Shown: positions 8,165-47,741 of the stretch, piece by piece | How positions within the stretch are numbered: position 1 is the stretch's first letter | Layout of the letters: every line of letters starts with the position of its first letter | Origin: Leeia speluncae | Lineage (GTDB): Bacteria; Pseudomonadota; Gammaproteobacteria; Burkholderiales; Leeiaceae | Assembly (NCBI RefSeq): GCF_020564625.1 | Contig: NZ_JAJBZT010000001.1 | Span: 1 to 64,000, forward strand | Reading direction: 5' to 3' | DNA length: 64,000 nucleotides | Notes under the pieces: generated by a model | Seen by the model: only the letters and a program-made list of their open reading frames with translations | The model's database searches: none | Told to the model about the DNA's origin: nothing | Position numbers and translations under genes: made by a program

Positions 8165-9436
8165 GTGAAGTTCGATACATTAGCGATTCATGGTGGTTAT
8201 GATCCTGATCCAACGACCAAAGCAGTAGCGGTACCGATTTATCAGACGACCAGCTATGCCTTTGATAGCACACAGCATGGTGCTGACCTATTTGATTTAA
8301 AAGTGCAGGGTAATATTTATACTCGCATTATGAACCCAACTACGTCAGTGCTAGAGCAACGGGTGGCTGCGTTAGAAGGTGGGATTGGTGCCTTAGCATT
8401 AGCTTCTGGCCAAGCGGCAATTACGTACGCCATTCAGACGATTGCTGAAGCAGGTGACAATATTATTGCGACAAGTACCCTATATGGTGGTACTTACAAT
8501 TTATTTGCCCATACCCTGCCACAGTATGGGATTGAGGTTCGTTTTGTCGATTATAAAGACCCGTCCGCAGTAGCTGCCTTGGTCGATGATCGTACCAAAG
8601 CCGTTTATGTCGAGTCGATTGGTAATCCATTAGGGAATGTGGTGGATTTTGCTGCATTTGCTGATGTTGCCCATGCAAATGGTTTACCACTAATTGTCGA
8701 CAACACCGTTCCAACGCCGTACTTAACACGCCCATTTGAGCATGGTGCAGATATTGTGGTGCACTCACTCACCAAATACCTTGGTGGCCATGGTACGAGT
8801 ATTGGTGGCGCAATTGTGGATAGCGGTAAATTTCCTTGGGCCAAGCACAAAGAGCGTTTCAAACGGCTAAATGAGCCAGATGTTTCTTATCACGGTGTCG
8901 TGTATACAGAAGCATTAGGTGATGCCGCTTATATTGCCCGCGCTCGTGTTGTTCCGCTTCGTAATATGGGTGCGGCAATTTCTCCATTTAATAGCTTCTT
9001 GATTTTACAAGGCATAGAAACGCTCGCTCTTCGCATGGATCGACATGTAGAGAATGCAACGAAAGTTGCGCAGTTTTTACAAAACCATCCAAAAGTGGAA
9101 TGGGTGAACTATGCTGGTTTACCTGACCATGAATCAAAGCCATTGATTGATCGCTACTTTGGTGGAAAAGCCTCTGGTCTGCTTACCTTTGGTGTGAAAG
9201 GTGGGCGTGAGGCAGGTGGTAAATTCCAAGACGCATTGCAGTTAATTACGCGATTAGTCAATATTGGTGATGCAAAATCATTAGCATGCCATCCAGCATC
9301 GACAACCCATCGCCAGTTAAATCCTGATGAACTAAAAAAAGCAGGCGTGTCAGAAGATATGGTGAGATTGTCGATTGGTATTGAACATATCGATGACATT
9401 ATTGCGGATCTTGATCAGGCACTTGCCGCTAGTTAG
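8165..9436 (+). CDS. metY: O-acetylhomoserine sulfhydrylase (MetY)
   Basis: A 423-residue PLP enzyme of the Cys/Met metabolism family. MetY uses sulfide and O-acetylhomoserine to form homocysteine, the direct-sulfhydrylation route to methionine. The opening [14 protein letters not shown] and the PLP-lysine motif [12 protein letters not shown] (K204) are typical of this subgroup, as is the length (cystathionine synthases are about 385). The start is a GTG, chosen because AAGGAGA sits at 8151-8157 with correct spacing and the family N-terminus begins there. It is a single-gene unit ending in a bidirectional terminator. A metR-type regulator lies about 11 kb away. O-succinylhomoserine use cannot be excluded. 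Confidence 0.92.
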
Positions 9437-15624: not shown

Positions 15625-17241
15625 TTAGAGTTGATATCCAGCAAGAATTTCAATTTGACGTTTCGCGAGGTCATCTAGTTGATTCGCATTTTCAGTAGTC
15701 ATGTCTGCCGAATTACTGGTCTTTTCTGTGATCTCTTTGATTTTAGCCAGCTGAATTGCAATCTCTGTGCTGGCATTGCTTTGCTCCGAAATGGCTTCCG
15801 AAATATCTTCCACCATTGCACTTGTTTTATCTGCAGCCTGACCAATTTGGATGATGACCGATTCTGTCTGATCTGCTCGTTCGACACTGACATTCACCGA
15901 GTGCACGGTTTTATCCATTTGTTGAACTGCAGAACTGGAATGTGCATGCATCGTGCTAATCGTTAGAGCGATTTCTTGTGTAGACGTGGCGGTCCTTTCG
16001 GCTAGTTTACGGACTTCGTCAGCGACCACTGCAAATCCTCTGCCTTGTTCACCAGCCCTGGCGGCTTCAATGGCCGCATTGAGCGCTAGTAGGTTGGTTT
16101 GCTCTGCTACTTCTCTGATGACCGCAACAACAGTGCCAATTTGATTACTTTGTAGCTCTAATGCTTTGAGCGACGAAGAGGTTTCATTGATGGTGGTGGA
16201 AATGTGACGTATGTCTTGAATGGTGTGATTAATCGTATTCACACCTTCATCAGCCATTTCTTTTGATTGCTTGGCAAGTAAAAGGGATTCGTGGCTTCGG
16301 TTAGTAATATGGCCAGAACTGTTGGTCAGTTCTTCCACCGTATCTCCTACTTGATTGGAGGCCTCATTTTGTTGATGTGCATTAGCAGAAAGAACTTTTG
16401 CGGTGTCTAGTAATTGATTAGCATTGCTTGCAACTTGTTGCGCACCTTCTTTTAGACTCTTTAAGTTAGCATGAAGAGAATCAATTAATTGATTAAACCA
16501 ATGAATGGTCTCGCCAATTTCATCGTTACTTACAATTTTTGCGCGCTGGGTAAAGTCTTTATGCTGACTTACTCTTGCAATAGTTTCTTTTATGCTGGCC
16601 AGCCCATGATTGACTGCTCTAGATAATGCCCATCCGATCAGTAGTACGCCAAGAATAGATATCCCTGCGACAGAGATCATCAGTGTTAGCGACTGAGAGA
16701 AGGTATTACTCGCTTTTTCTTGAATCGCTGTCGCTATTTGCTTGCTGTGCTTAATATGTGTTTCCAGCGCGCGTTGTACGCGTTCTGCCGCTTGGCTTCC
16801 CTCTGCGACGGCCATTTGTTGGGCGACATCAAACTGTCCCTCTCTAGACTTTTCTAACACGTCACCAATGGTTTTTTGATATTGATTGATTAGCGCAATA
16901 TCTTGTTTGGTTAACTGTTTGTCTTCGGCATCACTACTAAAGTCTTTATCGTAAATACTTAGCTGTTCTTGTAATTGTTTAAACGTGATGTCTAGTTCTT
17001 TCTCGATCTTATCTTGCAAGGTAGAGTTCATCGAAAGCACATGTTGCAAGGCTAGCCCTTGGCTTCGATTGAATTTGGTTGCCACACTACTTAGGGTGTC
17101 ATAGCCAGGTAATGTTTTATTCGAAATGATCTGGATATTATTGTTAGATTGGTTGATTCCCCATAGCCCCATTCCACAGACGGAAACCAAGCCAACACTT
17201 GCAATGGCAAAACTGAAATAGATTTTCTTTTTAATATTCAT
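15625..17241 (-). CDS. Methyl-accepting chemotaxis protein 1 of a tandem pair
   Basis: A 538-residue chemoreceptor. The order is TM1 (about 8-30), a periplasmic four-helix-bundle sensor (about 31-188), TM2 (about 188-210), HAMP, and a long coiled-coil signalling domain. The hairpin tip [20 protein letters not shown] and the following [20 protein letters not shown] are near invariant in MCPs and bind CheA/CheW. The ligand is not predictable. No C-terminal CheR-docking pentapeptide is present (it ends AGYQL). It lies downstream of a same-length paralogue in the same direction, separated by a strong terminator, so the two are separate transcription units that arose by duplication. Confidence 0.93.
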
Positions 17242-17402
17242 TCTTTGACTCTCCCCAGATAGAACGAATGACTAATCAGTCAATACTGATTACGGTTGGG
17301 GAAATAAAAGCAAGTAATGTGCCTAATGAATATACGTTGCCAACATCCGCGCCAGCCTTATAAGCGCGTTAAACGCGAAGCCTAATCGTTAGCATGTTTA
17401 TT

Positions 17403-17448
17403 CGGAAAAACGAATGTTTACGGTTTTGTGCGGTCGGAAAGACGAATG
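17403..17448. repeat. Short direct repeat upstream of MCP 1
   Basis: CGGAAAAACGAATG (17403-17416) recurs as CGGAAAGACGAATG (17435-17448), 13 of 14 bases identical and 32 bp apart (three helical turns). It lies between the MCP 2 terminator and the MCP 1 start, so it could be a regulator site. No known motif is recognised. Confidence 0.3.
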
Positions 17449-17457
17449 CAAAGATTG

Positions 17458-17505
17458 AAAAAAGCCCAGTTTTCCGACGGGGATGTCGGTACAACTGGGC
17501 TTTTT
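17458..17505 (-). terminator. Terminator of MCP 2
   Basis: AAAAAGCCCAGTT pairs with AACTGGGCTTTTT (13 bp) and the interior adds CCGAC/GTCGG. The A run on the plus strand gives the U-tract for the minus-strand chemoreceptor gene ending at 17525. Confidence 0.88.
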
Positions 17506-17524
17506 AGAGGCTATTTAAACAGGA

Positions 17525-19141
17525 TTAGAGTTTGTACTGTGCAAGAATTTCCATCTGCTTGTTGGCAAGCAAGTCGAGTTCATTTGCATTGCTTGCTGTT
17601 TGTGTTGCAGAGGTGGTTGCTTCTTCCGTCATTTGAGCAATTCGTTCAATTTGAACGGCAATGTTGGTGCTTGCAGCACTTTGCTCACGGATGGCATCGG
17701 CAATATCTCCAACCATCGTGCTGGTTTCTACAGATGCATGTCCAATATCTTCGATGGCACGATCTGCACTATCTGCACGATTCACGCTATTACCTACTAA
17801 CTTCACAGCCGCTTCCATTTGTTGGGTAGCTTGCTGTGTTTTTATGCGCATAGATTCAATCGTACTTGCGATTTCTTGCGTGGATGTGGCCGTTCTTTCG
17901 GCCAACTTACGTACTTCATCCGCTACCACCGCAAATCCACGGCCTTGTTCGCCTGCTCGTGCTGCTTCAATGGCTGCGTTTAACGCTAGCAGGTTAGTTT
18001 GTTCGGCAACCTCTTTAATGACTGCAACAACCGATCCAATTTGCGCGCCTTGTGTTTCCAATTCTTTAATCGTGCCAGAGGTTTGGCTAACGGTTGAAGA
18101 AATTGTTCGGATATCAGTAATCGTATCAGAAATTGTTTTTGAGCCTTCTTTAGCTAGTTTGCCGGAGTTTTGCGCAAGAGAAAGTGCTTCTTCTGATCTT
18201 TCTGCGACATGATTAATGCTGACGGTTACTTCTTCAATGGTGGCAGCAACATTCGCTGCCGCATCGCTTTGTGTCATCGCTGTTTGTGATAACAAACTAG
18301 CTGTAGAAGTCATTTGTTTTGCATTCTCTGCGACTTGGCTGGCACCTGTTTGAATTGCTTTTAGGTTAGATTGCAAACGCTCGAGTAATGCATTAAATGC
18401 CTTGATTGTTTCGCTGACTTCATCTTTGCCAGAGGCTGGCGCCCGCTTGGTAAAGTCTAGGTTCTGGCTAACGGTATTTACGGTTTCACGGATATGGTTT
18501 AACCCTTTAGAAATTGTTCTAAACAATTGGAAACCAAAACCAAGGGTAATAATGGCGGCACCAATCACTACTGCCAAAGTTATGAACAGCCCCGTGTGGT
18601 AAGTAGTACCTGCTTTTTCTTTTTGATCTGCAGCTAGCTTTTTATTGTAATCAACGTGTTTACGAAGCGCTTCTGATAAATTATTGCCACTTTGTAATCC
18701 TTCTTTGGCAATAATTTGTTTTGCATCATCAAACATCCCTTCTTGGGATTTTTTGATAATTTTGGCGATGGTTACTTTGTAGGCTGATACCGCATTGCGA
18801 TCGGCGATTAATAGTTTTTTGTCTTCATCATTTGAGACAAGGTTTTTTTCGTAACCGGCTAGAATTTCATCTAACTGTTTAAAGTTATCTTCCAGTTCTT
18901 TTTCGAGTTTGGTTTGAACTGCGGTGTCCATCTCCATGACGTGACGCAGCACAATCGTTCTGGCATTGAAGAAGTTAGCATTCGCTTTGTCTAATGCCTC
19001 ATAACTTGGCAAGGTGTTGTCTAAGATGTAAGCAACATTGGCATTCGTCGTTTGAAGGCCAATCACTCCTGAACCACCGACAAAAATAAGCGAAATTAAT
19101 GCGATCGCTAGAGTAATGATGATGCGCTTGGCAATGCTCAT
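17525..19141 (-). CDS. Methyl-accepting chemotaxis protein 2 of a tandem pair
   Basis: A 538-residue chemoreceptor with the same layout as its downstream neighbour: TM1 (about 8-30), a four-helix-bundle sensor including [13 protein letters not shown] and [14 protein letters not shown]2 near residues 188-210, HAMP, and the signalling domain. The tip [20 protein letters not shown] is intact. The equal length and shared phrases around the tip and in the sensor show that the two are paralogues; the sensor halves have diverged, which suggests different ligands. It ends in AQYKL with no CheR-docking motif. A FliA-like promoter precedes it. No other chemotaxis or flagellar gene is in the window. Confidence 0.93.
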
Positions 19142-28195: not shown

Positions 28196-30163
28196 ATGAG
28201 CGGTATTGATTCCATCCTGACTGAAACACGCGTATTCCCTCCATCTGATGAATTCCGCATCAATGCCAATATTTCTGGCATGGATGCTTACAACACCCTA
28301 TGTGAACAAGCGGCTTCAGACTATGAAGGTTTCTGGGGTAAACAAGCAAAAGAAAACATTACTTGGTTCAAACCATTTACCAAGGTATTAAACGAAAGCA
28401 ATGCACCATTTTATAAGTGGTTTGAAGATGGCGAACTAAACGTTTCATACAACTGTATTGATCGCCACTTGCCATTACTGGCTAACAAATTAGCGATCAT
28501 CTTTGAATCAGATAACGGTACTGTTACCCGTATTACTTACATGGAACTGTATCGCCGAGTGTGTCAGTTCGCTAACGGTCTTAAATCCATGGGGATCACC
28601 CGTGGTGACCGAGTTGTGATTTACATGCCAATGAGTATTGAAGCGGTTGTAGCAATGCAAGCATGTGCTCGTATTGGCGCAATCCACTCTGTTGTGTTTG
28701 GTGGTTTCTCAGGTAAGAGCTTGCAAGAGCGTATTATCGATGCAAAAGCACGTGTCGTTGTTACTGCAAACGAAGGTGTTCGTGGTGGTAAATTAGTTCC
28801 TCTAAAATCTGTCGTAGATGAGGCGCTAGATGGTGGCGGTTGCGAGTGTGTAGAGCGCGTGATTGTATTTAAACGCGCAGTTCACGAAGATGCACCTTGG
28901 ACCATTGGTCGCGACGTATGGTGGCACGATTTCATCAAAGGTAAGCCAGAGCATTGCGAGCCAACACCTGTTAATGCAGAAGACCCTCTATTTATTCTTT
29001 ACACCTCTGGTTCCACTGGTAAACCAAAAGGTGTACAGCACAGCAGTGCGGGTTATTTACTCGGTGCAATCAATACAATGCGCTGGACTTTCGACTACAA
29101 ACCATCGGATATCTTCTGGTGTACCGCAGATGTGGGTTGGATTACCGGCCACACCTATGTTGGTTATGGTCCATTAGCCGTAGGCGCCACACAGGTGATT
29201 TTTGAAGGGGTTCCAACTTACCCAGATGCGGGTCGCTTCTGGAAGATGATTGAACAGCACCGCGTGTCAGTGTTCTACACTGCACCAACGGCGATTCGCT
29301 CATTGATTAAACTAGGTGCGGATATCCCTGAACAGTACGATCTATCTAGCTTACGTCTACTAGGGACGGTGGGTGAGCCAATTAACCCAGAAGCATGGAT
29401 GTGGTACTACGAAAAAGTTGGTGGTGGTCGTTGTCCAATTGCGGATACTTGGTGGCAAACAGAAACTGGTAGCCATATGCTGGCACCAATGCCTGGTGCA
29501 GTGCCAACTAAACCTGGTTCTTGCACATTACCACTGCCAGGTATTATGGCGGATATTGTGGATGAAGCTGGCTTCCCTGTGGAAGCAGGTAAGGGTGGCT
29601 TCCTTGTCATTAAACGCCCATTCCCATCTCAAGTTCGTACATTGTGGAATGATCCAGAGCGCTTTAAAAAGTCTTACTTCCCAGAAGAGTACAACAACAA
29701 GTACTACTTAGCAGGGGACTCTGCTCACCGTGATGAGCAAGGTTACTTCTGGATCATGGGCCGGATTGATGATGTACTAAACGTATCTGGTCACCGCTTA
29801 GGCACTATGGAAATTGAATCTGCACTGGTTGCAAACCCATTAGTGGCGGAAGCAGCCGTTGTTGGTAAGCCGCACGAAATTAAGGGTGAATCTGTTGTTG
29901 CCTTTGTGGTGCTCAAAGGACCACGTCCAAGCGGAGAAGAGGCGAAGAAAATTACTGCCAACTTACGTGAATGGGTAGGTAGTGAAATCGGCGCTTTGGC
30001 GAAGCCTGATGAAATTCGTTATGGCGATAACTTGCCAAAAACACGCTCAGGTAAAATTATGCGTCGTTTACTTCGTGCAGTCGCTAAAGGTGAAGAAATC
30101 ACTCAAGATATTTCTACACTAGAAAACCCAACTATCTTGAAGCAATTGCAAGAAACGCTATAA
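28196..30163 (+). CDS. acs: Acetyl-CoA synthetase
   Basis: A 655-residue AMP-forming acetyl-CoA synthetase converting acetate, ATP and CoA to acetyl-CoA. The signature [12 protein letters not shown] binds ATP, and the C-terminal [14 protein letters not shown] carries the lysine that is acetylated in many Acs enzymes to switch activity off. The frame opens at 28127, but I chose the ATG at 28196 because AAGGAG sits at 28181-28186 and MSGIDSIL begins the family-like sequence. It lies behind actP, and a strong terminator follows. Confidence 0.97.
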
Positions 30164-30224
30164 CGCTAGGTAATTACTAGATATATGGGGCAAGGGGTAA
30201 CTAACCACTACCGCTTGTATATAG

Positions 30225-30267
30225 ACACAAAAGCCGGAACCGTTTATCCGGCTTTTGTGTTTTTTTA
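30225..30267 (+). terminator. Terminator of acs
   Basis: ACACAAAAGCCGGA pairs with TCCGGCTTTTGTGT (14 bp) around an eight-base loop, followed by seven T. A strong intrinsic terminator. Confidence 0.93.
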
Positions 30268-30451
30268 TTTCTATTTCATAAAAACTGTCTAAACTGAACG
30301 GTAGCTGAATCTGTTTTTCCTTCTATCTATCACTTGGAACTTTGCTCAAAAATAGTGCATCAAAGCGTAGCAGTACTTTTTTTGTTGTAAATGAAGATGA
30401 AAATAGGCTTTGGGGAACCCCAAACGACTAACTCGTGAAAAAGGTAAGTCT

Positions 30452-31231
30452 ATGGAACAGAATGAACTACTAGACATTGTCACTACCCGTTTACCTGCGC
30501 ATTGTCATCAGGAGCTAGATTTCGATCTAGATAAATACGGGCGTTTAGGTTGTTGGTTTTATAAATGTTTTATCACGACGAGCTTTGAACCAATTGCCAA
30601 AGCGGATGGTTCTGGACTAGTAGGCGTGTCTGCGCGGTTAGATATCCGATTGTTGAACGGAATCGGTATTCCCTATAAAAGTTTTGTATCCATGCTCCGC
30701 TCCGAAGTCGCGCAAATTAAGCTAGATTATATTGGTCGATTACTTCATACCATTAATCATGTGATGAGTGAATATGCTCATCTTCCGCTGCATCTTCCGG
30801 TCATACCCTCTCAGGAAACTTTGTTAAAAAGACGTCATGAAGCCGATTTCTTGGGGCTGATAAAGTCTTTAAACATGCCGCTTGATCAATATGTGATAGA
30901 AATTCCTATTCTAAGTAACACACAGCAGCGCCTTGCCTCTATCGCCACTCGACGCTATAAAAAGCAAGGCTTACAAGTTGCCGTCATGATTAAGCATCGA
31001 TTCCGTGCCGATGATGCCGGCTGGGGAAACGTTAAGCCTGATATCGTGAAATATCGTTTATCCTTTATGGAAAGAAAACCAGAATGGGTAAACGTCCTAA
31101 ACGAATGGGCAAATCGATACTTAATTCCGGTCTATCTCAGAGTTAATAATTTGCCGGTAGGATTTCCATTTGTAGATACCCGGATAGATGCCATCCAAAC
31201 GCCTGATCACTTAGCAGGACAAATGCTTTAA
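30452..31231 (+). CDS. Degenerate EAL-domain-like protein
   Basis: A 259-residue protein from the ATG at 30452 (AAAAAGG just upstream); a TTG at 30410 is possible but less likely. I find no close family by eye. The order of elements resembles an EAL domain: SFEPIAKADGSGLVGVSARL (44-63) for the first strand and EAL site, YVIEIP (147-152) for the EITE strand, PDIVKYRLSF (196-205) for KLDRSF, and a final strand plus IDAIQTPDHLAGQ (245-257) for the last helix. Key catalytic residues are missing: there is no EAL glutamate, no DDFG, and KLD is KYR. If the fold is right, it is a non-catalytic c-di-GMP or protein-binding module. It follows acs but has its own upstream region. Confidence 0.6.
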   Translation: MEQNELLDIVTTRLPAHCHQELDFDLDKYGRLGCWFYKCFITTSFEPIAKADGSGLVGVSARLDIRLLNGIGIPYKSFVSMLRSEVAQIKLDYIGRLLHTINHVMSEYAHLPLHLPVIPSQETLLKRRHEADFLGLIKSLNMPLDQYVIEIPILSNTQQRLASIATRRYKKQGLQVAVMIKHRFRADDAGWGNVKPDIVKYRLSFMERKPEWVNVLNEWANRYLIPVYLRVNNLPVGFPFVDTRIDAIQTPDHLAGQML

Positions 31232-31232
31232 C

Positions 31233-31994
31233 TTAACTGTGCGCTAGATGACATTGCCACTCAAATTGTTGAGTTAATTGCAAAAACTCCCCATTGATGG
31301 GGGCTTGGATCATGACCTTTTGCTGAGTAATTGGATGCGTTAAGCTGAGTTCAGTGCAAGCCAATAGCAATCTACCGCATTGAAAGTGCTGCTTAAAGTA
31401 GCGGTTATGAACGCCTTTTCCATGATTAGCATCACCAATAATTGGATGGGCGATGTGTTTTAAGTGGCGCCGAATTTGATGGCGCCGACCTGTTTCTGGT
31501 TTTAGGCGAACTAGGGCATATCGACTTGTCGGATACTTATCAATCATTACTGGTAACGTAATTGTTGCCAATGTCTTAAAGTGAGTTATAGCAGGTTGAG
31601 GCAACAACTCTGCTCGTTCATCATGAAACTCATTGTCGTCGACTTGTCTTGATAGGGCATAGTCGATCGTTCCTTCTACAGGTGGGTGTCCCCTAACAAC
31701 GGCAAGATACGTTTTATCCACTAACTGTAACTCGAACTGCTTATATAGATCTTTTGCTGTTTCAGGCTGTAAAGCAAATAGCAATACTCCCGACGTTGCT
31801 CTATCTAGCCGGTGGGCAGGGTAGACATGACAACCTATCTGATCTCTAAGCATTTGTACGGCAAATTGCGTTTCATGCCGATCAATCATACTTCGATGAA
31901 CGAGTAGTCCTGACGGTTTGTTAATTGCCACTAGATACTCATCCTGATACAGGATATCTAATGGTCCTTCAAAGGGCGGATTGTCTGAACGCAT
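31233..31994 (-). CDS. truC: tRNA pseudouridine(65) synthase TruC
   Basis: A 253-residue RluA-family synthase making pseudouridine at tRNA position 65. The catalytic motif HRLDRATSG has D64. The phrases ILYQDEYLVAINKPSGLLVHRS and GRRHQIRRHLKHIAHPIIGD are close to E. coli TruC rather than the other RluA-type enzymes. The frame runs up to 32045; I start at the ATG at 31994 because the family N-terminus begins a few residues later. Its end is 2 bases from the end of the convergent EAL-like gene. Confidence 0.88.
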   Translation of the reverse strand: MRSDNPPFEGPLDILYQDEYLVAINKPSGLLVHRSMIDRHETQFAVQMLRDQIGCHVYPAHRLDRATSGVLLFALQPETAKDLYKQFELQLVDKTYLAVVRGHPPVEGTIDYALSRQVDDNEFHDERAELLPQPAITHFKTLATITLPVMIDKYPTSRYALVRLKPETGRRHQIRRHLKHIAHPIIGDANHGKGVHNRYFKQHFQCGRLLLACTELSLTHPITQQKVMIQAPINGEFLQLTQQFEWQCHLAHS

Positions 31995-32043
31995 ATTGTG
32001 ATTGTGTTTACACGAATAATTAAGTTTTAGCACAAGCAAAAAC

Positions 32044-32073
32044 AAAAGGCCATGCAGCTTCGCATGGCCTTTT
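32044..32073 (-). terminator. Terminator of dnaJ
   Basis: AAAAGGCCATGC and GCATGGCCTTTT form a 12-bp stem with a six-base loop. On the minus strand it is followed by a broken U-tract (TTTTGTTTTTG). Confidence 0.85.
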
Positions 32074-37230: not shown

Positions 37231-37902
37231 TTACTTGGTGGTTTTTGGGCAACTACCTTTTAATTTCCAATTGCTACCTACTTGTTGTAGTACTAAACGT
37301 ACTTTCGTTTTGTCGTAGTCGCAACTCCAGAGTATCTCGGCTTCGGAATTCGATTTCCATGAAAAAGGCCAATTTCTGGATGTGTCATTCTCTCCATAAA
37401 CAGGTTGCCCAGGAATTTCATCTGGTAAGCTCCAAAGCATTTTTCCTGTTTTAAGATCCACAATCCCTGCTGTACCATATCCTTCAATCAGATTTACCCA
37501 AAGTGCTTTATCTAAGCCTGGTGATAATTTGAATGGGCCACCTAAGGTGATCTCTTTCCCTGATTCAAAAAGTATTTTGGACTGACTTTCTTCATATAAC
37601 CAGACAGTTAGTGCATGTGCTTTAATTTCTGGCAAATAGTCTTCGTAGGCGTAAGAGATTGCATCATCTCCTTCTGATAGGTTGTTTTTATAGACCTTTT
37701 TTCCCTTACTAAGGGGAATTTCAAGCTTAGTACCATTTCGCTTAAAAGTAGACAGCCCAGCTTTTGTAAGACAAGGTTCATGTGCGTCATATTTTGCTTT
37801 GTCACATTGCTGATGAATTTTCCCCATTTGCGCAGCGTCAGGGAGGGGCGCAGCAAACACCGTGCTTGATGAGCAAACAAGTAAAGCCAATAGTTTCTTC
37901 AT
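37231..37902 (-). CDS. Secreted protein of a tandem paralogue pair (A)
   Basis: A 223-residue protein from the ATG at 37902, giving a clean signal peptide (MKKLLALLVCSSSTVFAAP); the frame runs up to 37941. I do not recognise the family. It is similar to its upstream neighbour over its whole length: a Cys pair near the N-terminus (QQCDKAKYDAHEPCLTKAG), a central region, a conserved W (KMLWSLPDE), and a late Cys pair (LWSCDYDKTKV, KGSCP). The four cysteines probably form two disulfides in the periplasm. The pair A-B is spaced by 10 bases and is likely one transcript. Confidence 0.75.
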   Translation of the reverse strand: MKKLLALLVCSSSTVFAAPLPDAAQMGKIHQQCDKAKYDAHEPCLTKAGLSTFKRNGTKLEIPLSKGKKVYKNNLSEGDDAISYAYEDYLPEIKAHALTVWLYEESQSKILFESGKEITLGGPFKLSPGLDKALWVNLIEGYGTAGIVDLKTGKMLWSLPDEIPGQPVYGENDTSRNWPFSWKSNSEAEILWSCDYDKTKVRLVLQQVGSNWKLKGSCPKTTK

Positions 37903-37912
37903 TTTTCGTTCT

Positions 37913-38572
37913 CTATCCATTACTGGCGCAAATTTTACCATCCATCATCCACTTGCCATTTTGTTTTAGGAATCGCGTATTGACGGTTTTCTCTCCCGTA
38001 CACATCCAAGTGAATTGTAAGCTACCATCTTTTAGCCATTGACCACGGTCAGTATAGGTTGGCATTTTGTTATGTAACGGAGACTGCCAAATTAATTGTA
38101 GCGTGTTTAAGTCATAGATTTTGACACTAGGATTGGCTTCAATATTGATTGAGTATCCTAATTCTTTTGTCGGGCTTAGATGAAATGAGCTGGTTTCAAT
38201 TTTCTTGCCATTGTCAGACAAGAGTACGTTATAGCTTTCTCCTGGGGTCTGTACATTGATGATGTGAAAATGATGGGAAGGGACATATTCTCTGTAACTG
38301 TAGAATGTACCATCGTCATTACTTTCGCCTTCATCTTTGAAGGTGAATGCTTTTCCGTTTGTCGTATAGACAACGAGATCATGTCCCTTATTTTTTCTCT
38401 CAAAGACATTTACGCCTTGCTTTTTCAGACACATTTCTGAATCGTTCGCTTTTTCACATGCCTTAACAATTTTATCTGCTGTTGTTTGATCCGCAGGGAA
38501 AGGGGATGTTGGCGCGGCAGAAAATGCGGTAGTGCTGAAGAGAAGAGCCGAAATAGTGAGTGTTTTTTTCAT
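37913..38572 (-). CDS. Secreted protein of a tandem paralogue pair (B)
   Basis: A 219-residue protein with a signal peptide (MKKTLTISALLFSTTAFSAA). It is a diverged duplicate of gene A: KACEKANDSEMCLKKQGVNVF aligns with the A segment around its first Cys pair, LQLIWQSPLHNKMP with KMLWSLPDEIPGQP, and FTWMCTGEKTVNTRFLKQNGKWMMDGKIC with the A C-terminus. The four cysteines are conserved. No catalytic motif is apparent; it may be a small beta-rich periplasmic protein. It is first of the pair. Confidence 0.75.
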   Translation of the reverse strand: MKKTLTISALLFSTTAFSAAPTSPFPADQTTADKIVKACEKANDSEMCLKKQGVNVFERKNKGHDLVVYTTNGKAFTFKDEGESNDDGTFYSYREYVPSHHFHIINVQTPGESYNVLLSDNGKKIETSSFHLSPTKELGYSINIEANPSVKIYDLNTLQLIWQSPLHNKMPTYTDRGQWLKDGSLQFTWMCTGEKTVNTRFLKQNGKWMMDGKICASNG

Positions 38573-46893: not shown

Positions 46894-47024
46894 ATTGTTT
46901 AATTCGGCACGCACTGCTTCACTGGCTACACTGCTAGATTGTGAAGCGGGATAGGGTGGGAATGCATTAGCGTTCTGTTTTCGGCGCTAGGCAAGCATTG
47001 CTAATGCTTGTGATGCGTAGCAAT

Positions 47025-47051
47025 AAAAAAACCCGCTTTTCAGCGGGTTTT
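47025..47051 (-). terminator. Terminator of the cold-shock gene
   Basis: AAAACCCGCT pairs with AGCGGGTTTT; the loop is GAAA on the minus strand. The A run on the plus strand gives the U-tract for the minus-strand csp gene. Confidence 0.9.
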
Positions 47052-47073
47052 AGTCATCAAACTTTGTAATAAA

Positions 47074-47277
47074 TTACGCAGCTTGGATGTTTGCAGCTTG
47101 CTTGCCTTTAGGGCCAGTAGTTACGTCGAAACTAACTTTCTGACCTTCTTTCAAGGTTTTGAAGCCTTGCATATTGATCGCAGAGAAGTGCGCGAATAGA
47201 TCTTCGCCACCATCATCTGGAGTAATAAAGCCAAAACCTTTGGAATCGTTGAACCATTTAACGGTACCAGTTGCCAT
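47074..47277 (-). CDS. Cold-shock domain protein (CspA family)
   Basis: A 67-residue single cold-shock domain that binds single-stranded RNA/DNA. RNP1 is KGFGFI and RNP2 is DLFAHFSAI, with the opening [17 protein letters not shown] typical of CspA/CspE. It is a single-gene unit between a leader of about 125 bases and a terminator, so it may be cold-induced or constitutive. Confidence 0.95.
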
Positions 47278-47741
47278 CTTAATGATGCTCCATCTTACAA
47301 ACTAATGTTACGGTGTTACAGACTATTATTGCCTGCGCTTACGGTTTGTGTTTCAAGGGCGCGACTGGCAAACCGGTACAACATCTCTTGAAAGCGCAAA
47401 CTAGTTCCTCATTAAGCGGTATTTCTTTTCTGAAGTCAAGTGCATAAATCGTACTATTTCAGGAAAAATGCATAAACTTGCAAAAAAACCTGTTTGAACT
47501 CACTTTTATTGATCAAAAACGACGAAAAAAAGTAGATTGTTAGTACGTTAATTTTTTATCTGTCATTTTTTGTGCAACACATCAAAATAGGGTAGGCAAC
47601 AACGAAGAAACGCGCTAAATTTAGATGGCGTGCAAAAAATATCTGCATGTAAATTGCGTAAGCAAATTGGATGATAGTTAGGCATATTAGGAAAATGCCT
47701 CCTATACTTAAATCAGCAAAGACTAATAAGAAAATTTAACC
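47278..47741. other. Divergent region csp / clpS with long csp leader
   Basis: A 464-base gap. The csp promoter candidate at 47411-47439 implies a 5' leader of about 125 nt, as is usual for cspA-type RNA thermosensors. Before clpS, TATACT at 47703-47708 is a plausible -10, and AGGCAT/ATGCCT (47680-47700) is a small inverted repeat there. No ORF or RNA gene was recognised. Confidence 0.45.
47411..47439 (-). promoter_or_regulatory. Predicted promoter of the cold-shock gene
   Basis: On the minus strand TTGACT (47434-47439), a 17-base spacer and CTTAAT (47411-47416). Transcription would begin near 47404, giving a leader of about 127 nt. Confidence 0.5.

Follow-up and report, generated by a model that had tools for sequence, protein, structure and literature searches.

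The open reading frame at positions 30452-31231 (+ strand) of the window, by which we mean the whole stretch of 64,000 nucleotides analysed here, was found to encode a degenerate stand-alone EAL-fold protein of 259 amino acids. Our preferred reading, held with moderate confidence, is that the gene specifies a docking regulator without catalytic activity whose origin lies in a sulfur-starvation family. The product would be a stand-alone EAL barrel, very probably non-hydrolysing, that most likely docks onto another protein, and the gene would be an extra, fast-diverging member of a family usually located beside sulfur-uptake genes; of three Leeia genomes, one carries this copy. The window gene alone is a modest find and the wider EAL family is the interesting part.

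The reading frame, which the initial annotation had already delimited, runs on the + strand from the ATG at 30452 to a stop codon ending at 31231 and is real and coding-like. Its in-frame codon score is 0.07 bits per codon, whereas the five remaining frames of the same interval score between -0.07 and -0.39, and one given stretch of 259 codons would stay open by chance with a probability of about 3e-7. The gene is flanked upstream by acs, encoding acetate-CoA ligase (28196..30163, + strand; TIGR02188, 1.6e-300, with a query that began one codon earlier), and downstream by a convergent gene (31233..32045, - strand) that we take to be pseudouridine-synthase-like (rluA-like) from its HRLDR motif. 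Two elements were observed between acs and the gene, namely a terminator-like hairpin at 30223..30262 (+ strand) and a perfect inverted repeat of 16 bp, TTTGGGG-AA-CCCCAAA, at 30409..30424, 27 bases 5' of the start codon. The repeat was weighed as a candidate operator; the genome contains this one perfect copy plus one with a mismatch elsewhere. Folding of the leader was nothing unusual (z -0.97), and no sigma-70-like site was found in 30100-31400, where 3.6 are expected by chance.

Strands and helices in the order of an EAL barrel had been read from the translation, and both profile and structure comparisons agree with this. The Pfam EAL profile (PF00563) matches the window protein with an E-value of 1.1e-4 and 22.1 bits, under its gathering cut-off of 31.3, which the relative in Leeia oryzae clears with 35.3 bits. 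An AlphaFold2 model computed from 11 sequences (the window protein and ten relatives) has a pLDDT of 76.0 and a pTM of 0.75, with an unreliable stretch (under 50) in the last 27 residues, 233-259; its secondary structure includes helix alpha2 at 85-104 and a strand at 175-180. A single-sequence prediction was uninformative (pLDDT 35.7) and was set aside. Every one of the 50 entries listed by VIA-align for the model contains an EAL domain, as judged by title or, for a few such as RocR, by what is generally known of the protein. The highest of these 50 is 6ij2, an EAL protein of Vibrio that is likewise stand-alone (Z 17.6 over 198 residues at an rmsd of 2.9), and Foldseek likewise returns EAL proteins for the same model. 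The structure prediction that had been proposed as a check thus gives a TIM barrel of EAL type with most of its catalytic residues missing, and on the strength of the model we assign the window protein to this fold. Searches with phmmer against PDB sequences, with NCBIfam profiles and with tblastn against plasmids gave no match for the window protein.

The active site is largely ablated. In the automatic alignment of 104 rows the window protein matches four of the ten positions of the catalytic set E-R-N-E-D-D-K-D-E-Q, and the number falls to two (E150 and K200) once a gap artefact is discounted. The automatic alignment places D187-D188 in the two DDFG aspartate columns by means of a gap, a placement that is probably artefactual given the strand at 175-180 of the model; an ungapped count from G173 instead puts M-I-K-H, codons 179-182 (30986..30997, + strand), at the position of the DDFG loop, at the end of that strand. 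At the EAL signature position the alignment shows S-A-R (codons 60-62; 30629..30637, + strand), with S60 in place of the glutamate. The reported absence of the EAL glutamate and of the DDFG loop is therefore upheld, the latter by the ungapped count, whereas the reported loss of both charged residues of the KLD motif applies to the aspartate only: in PDIVKYR (codons 196-202; 31037..31057, + strand) K200 sits in the conserved lysine column of the KxD motif and R202 replaces the aspartate. The residues replaced in the window protein comprise the EAL glutamate, the ExLxR arginine, the asparagine, the KxD aspartate and the later glutamate and glutamine. The catalytic roles of these positions are general knowledge for EAL enzymes, and the retained E150 occupies a position that we take to be a metal ligand in EALs. 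An active phosphodiesterase was ruled out because the catalytic residues are lost, and from its sequence the window protein very probably cannot hydrolyse c-di-GMP. Since the EAL fold is kept while the active site is ablated, a non-catalytic EAL relative, as had been proposed, is the best reading.

The EAL domains of LapD and FimX are likewise non-catalytic signalling modules, which form parts of larger proteins. A c-di-GMP receptor of their type, which no longer hydrolyses the ligand and still binds it, would fit the fold that the window protein shares with the FimX EAL domain (3hv8, Z 16.4) and the LapD EAL domain (3pju, Z 15.3), as well as the retention of E150 and K200. However, LapD and FimX bind c-di-GMP in their structures, whereas the window protein is without most of the ligand residues, the six listed above being replaced together with both DDFG aspartates in the ungapped register, and we consider such a receptor very improbable.

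The position of the gene directly after acs, on the same strand, speaks for the earlier suggestion of a regulator possibly linked to acetate metabolism or motility. The terminator-like hairpin parts the two genes, however, and the pairing is absent from both other Leeia genomes, as the survey of acs neighbourhoods that had been suggested reveals. In L. oryzae (DSM 17879; L077) acs is directly followed by the convergent rluA-like gene with no such frame between them, and the single match to the window protein in that genome lies away from acs. The third Leeia genome (L078) has other neighbours at acs and no relative of the gene there, nor does it contain a match to the window protein anywhere; its locus is the weaker evidence, being otherwise rearranged. 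Clustering of 31 related loci gave an acs relative in one only, a 569-aa frame of L105, and 42 of 61 relatives lie near genes for the uptake of sulfate, taurine or alkanesulfonate. The window gene thus looks like a species-level insertion at acs. With the acs locus not conserved, an acs-linked role in controlling acetate metabolism or motility was set aside and is given little credence here.

When named genomes were first scanned with the window protein as query, no relative could be confirmed. As a query against its own order, the window protein matches 66 of 399 genomes, its own included. In class-wide searches the L. oryzae protein matches 21 of 369 genomes, one of them the window's own, and a group B protein matches 277 of 369, mostly through long frames, so that this last search is not discriminating. 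With named loci added and with loci that duplicate named records (L062, L094, L099) and identical proteins (L118, L127, L154) dropped, 78 rows were assembled. One EAL gene was counted per locus, namely the best match (the central one in L141), and the second EAL genes of L087, L097, L116, L130 and L141 were left out of the counts. Lengths were measured from the first ATG in frame and may be too long; the frames of L144 and L150 carry a stop inside the match and were used as they stand.

On the resulting tree two branches were designated clades A and C, and B is what remains. Clade A consists of 42 degenerate rows, the window protein included, none of which has the full catalytic set. The full set of ten is found in eight of the 19 rows of B and in 16 of the 17 rows of clade C, where 16 proteins measure 420-468 aa. 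An EAL gene of the window's own genome that falls in clade C (can_L026) was not counted because only 1.5 kb of its flank was available.

The genome that carries the window gene has 30 matches to PF00563, and three of its genes encode degenerate stand-alone EAL proteins: the window copy, a copy on contig C13 (C13:34793-35428; L063:8734-9492) and a copy on contig C11 (C11:85367-86143; L064:7368-8147). The C11 copy sits on a long branch with an unsure place on the tree and was excluded from the clade counts. The window, L. oryzae and C13 copies form one group (SH-aLRT 98; bootstrap 99 and SH-aLRT 98 in a second tree). The window protein is thereby grouped with sulfur-linked members (L079 and L063; 99/98), its exact place being unsure given its long branch. 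The end branch of the window protein measures 1.9-2.2 changes per column, whereas those of the two sister copies measure 0.3-0.5. We conclude that the window gene is a fast-evolving paralogue within the stand-alone EAL family.

Such a branch would also be expected of a decaying duplicate, a functionless copy drifting to a pseudogene, and the same reading could accommodate the codon score, which is below that of each of the 16 reference genes of the window (0.146-0.657), and the fact that neither of the other Leeia genomes has a counterpart next to acs. It accords poorly with the 259 open codons, as a neutral frame should hold stops after change on this scale, and with the distribution of the changes. 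At columns conserved in at least 80% of the rows the window protein keeps 16 of 26 residues, while in the 146 other columns it has the majority residue at 37; the ten conserved columns lost include R93, R120, L121 and G130, whereas D92, R96, H99 and N102 are intact. Decay is accordingly regarded as an unlikely account of the window copy, and a maintained docking regulator remains the reading that we prefer.

The linkage of the family to sulfur genes was scored by the presence within 6 kb of an uptake gene (sbp, cysT, cysW, tauA, ssuA, ssuD or tauD). A neighbour was called a sulfur gene when it matched a reference gene, itself named by NCBIfam, at thresholds of 45% identity and 80 bits; other neighbours were named by Pfam or NCBIfam. 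Matches over the NCBIfam cut-off were obtained for the sulfate-binding protein, CysT, CysW, the sulfate ABC ATP-binding protein, TauA, TauD, SsuA, SsuD and the CysB family, and the TauC reference lies just below its cut-off. An uptake gene was found within 6 kb in 28 of the 42 rows of clade A, in 14 of the 19 rows of B and in none of the 17 rows of clade C. Combining A and B gives 42 of 61 against 0 of 17 (Fisher 1.4e-7, with rows that are not phylogenetically independent). At 1.5 kb the corresponding counts are 25, 12 and 0, and in 40 of the 42 linked rows the closest uptake gene shares the strand of the EAL gene. A recurring order is sbp - EAL-like gene - cysT - cysW - cysA, to which some loci add a downstream gene for a CysB-family regulator. 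The sulfur-linked state requires at least 12 changes on the tree, so the linkage did not arise by one chance event that was then inherited, nor is it fixed.

EAL proteins linked to sulfate or sulfonate uptake span 14 family codes within the order of the window genome. No uptake gene was found within 6 kb in 19 of the 61 rows, including all four rows of f29, four of six in f27 and five of eight in f20; these unlinked rows include short contigs (L115, L140) on which a neighbour could be missed. Outside the order, sbp or cysTW was present in the fetched stretch of four of eight loci, in one case on the opposite strand; these eight loci were chosen from the L. oryzae-protein search as open frames under 400 aa, with G552 (372 aa) left out.

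Further genes were observed within some of these loci. In L095 (8893-11434), L096 and L097 a family 2A encapsulin and its cargo cysteine desulfurase lie between the EAL-like gene and cysT, and in L095 a DUF2325 protein is encoded between sbp and the EAL-like gene. In Chitinimonas loci, L080-L083 among them, the EAL-like gene is separated from sbp by a peroxiredoxin.

Both other degenerate copies of the window's own genome lie in sulfur loci. The C13 copy is situated 69 bp before tauA, which is followed by tauC and tauD, and the C11 copy occurs in an organosulfur cluster whose other members are ssuE, a sigma-54 activator, a Cys/Met PLP enzyme and an SfnB-like oxidoreductase (below the model cut-off); contig C11 also carries the genome's single sbp match, about 12 kb from the EAL copy. 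These two copies, together with the sulfur linkage of the whole family, would suit a third copy that still serves the sulfur-starvation response in trans. The window gene itself has no sulfur-uptake gene within 6 kb, however, and its branch is far longer than those of its two sisters, which makes continued service in trans possible and, in our estimate, rather unlikely. Because the window copy is not part of a sulfur locus and no other branch in its group is as long, a role changed after duplication is at least as likely for it as the family role. Of the sulfur genes searched for, the 64-kb window contains metY alone (O-acetylhomoserine sulfhydrylase-like; 8165-9436, + strand), 21 kb from the EAL gene.

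An invariant feature of clade A was found in helix alpha2, at codons 91-102 of the window protein (LDYIGRLLHTIN; 30722..30757, + strand), within the model helix at 85-104. The residues D92, R96, H99 and N102 (D..R..H..N) are present in all 42 rows, window protein included, although R93 next to D92 is replaced by tyrosine in the latter. R96, H99 and N102 also occur in 19 of 19 rows of B and in 16-17 of 17 rows of clade C, so that the motif extends to catalytic, non-sulfur proteins and is not sulfur-specific. In the same genome, 25 canonical EALs were compared at these columns: five have the aspartate and two the arginine, and histidine and asparagine are absent from the commonest letters shown, except for a histidine in two at the asparagine position. 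From their spacing, the four residues probably lie on one face of the helix.

Fifteen members of clade A measure only 174-231 aa and are without the C-terminal strands (for example L080, L081, L082, L083, L101, L103, L107, L140 and L143). Nine of the 15 are sulfur-linked, the two tested gave no match to the Pfam EAL profile, and in 13 of the 15 no C-terminal remnant was detected downstream (best E 0.03 or worse). These relatives are possibly natural half-barrels, and their lack of the C-terminal strands suggests that selection keeps the N-terminal part with alpha2. In L116 and L130 a half-length EAL-like gene is followed in tandem by a second EAL gene, with none of the searched sulfur-uptake genes within 6 kb. 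With these proteins an isolated oddity becomes a testable family, a graded series from full catalytic sets through dead barrels to half-length proteins that offers a natural test of EAL-domain functions besides hydrolysis.

For LapD and GcbC it has been proposed that the EAL alpha2 helix contacts alpha5 of the GGDEF domain (PMC5635695), and this proposal together with the retention of the N-terminal part suggests the docking model. The family, whose usual homes are the sbp-EAL-cysTWA, tau and ssu loci, would act under sulfur shortage, and its alpha2 face would bind a partner, the likeliest candidates being GGDEF or EAL enzymes and sulfur regulators such as CysB. Such docking could couple the nutrient state to c-di-GMP signalling or to the expression of uptake genes. 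More tentatively, we propose a widespread enzyme-dead EAL family, some members of which retain about five of the eight strands, that would serve as a sulfur-starvation adaptor through the invariant alpha2 and relay sulfur supply to c-di-GMP, with the window gene as a freed copy in a new role.

Several known systems resemble the family in part. YdiV (RflP) of E. coli and Salmonella, a degenerate EAL protein induced by nutrient starvation, works by interacting with FlhDC and, together with SlyD, with Fur (PMC7515728). Like the window protein it is stand-alone and degenerate. A YdiV-like mode of action is possible for the window protein. On the other hand, the window protein has no phmmer match to solved structures, YdiV is absent from the 50 VIA-align entries listed, and the family context of the window protein is sulfur uptake instead. 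PA0285 of Pseudomonas shares with the family the location of an EAL protein gene beside sulfate-uptake genes, being encoded downstream of cysAWT-sbp; according to PMC10874727 it is an active dual GGDEF/EAL phosphodiesterase, whereas the proteins described here are EAL only with a mostly incomplete catalytic set. The catalytic stand-alone EALs of group B (such as L109, L123 and L132) share the alpha2 signature, a similar size and the sbp/cysTW context with the family; the catalytic set is complete in eight of the 19 rows of this group, unlike in the window protein.

A link between sulfate assimilation and c-di-GMP is reported, in Vibrio vulnificus between PAPS and c-di-GMP (PMC6113621), and the family is a possible route for it. 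No earlier report of the family was found in the accessible parts of PMC2907700 and PMC8341724. Stand-alone EAL proteins in sulfate operons were not recognised among the matches listed by a full-text literature search, which covers subscription journals thinly, so that absence there is no proof.

Finally, three further features were observed in the window. A match to the cspA thermoregulator RNA (98.5 bits) occurs at 47023-47458 (- strand). Two adjacent small proteins with signal-peptide-like starts, mutually similar and falling in one cluster, are encoded at 37231-38572 (- strand). Two adjacent frames of 538 aa at 15625-19141 (- strand) are probably the chemoreceptors named in the initial annotation.
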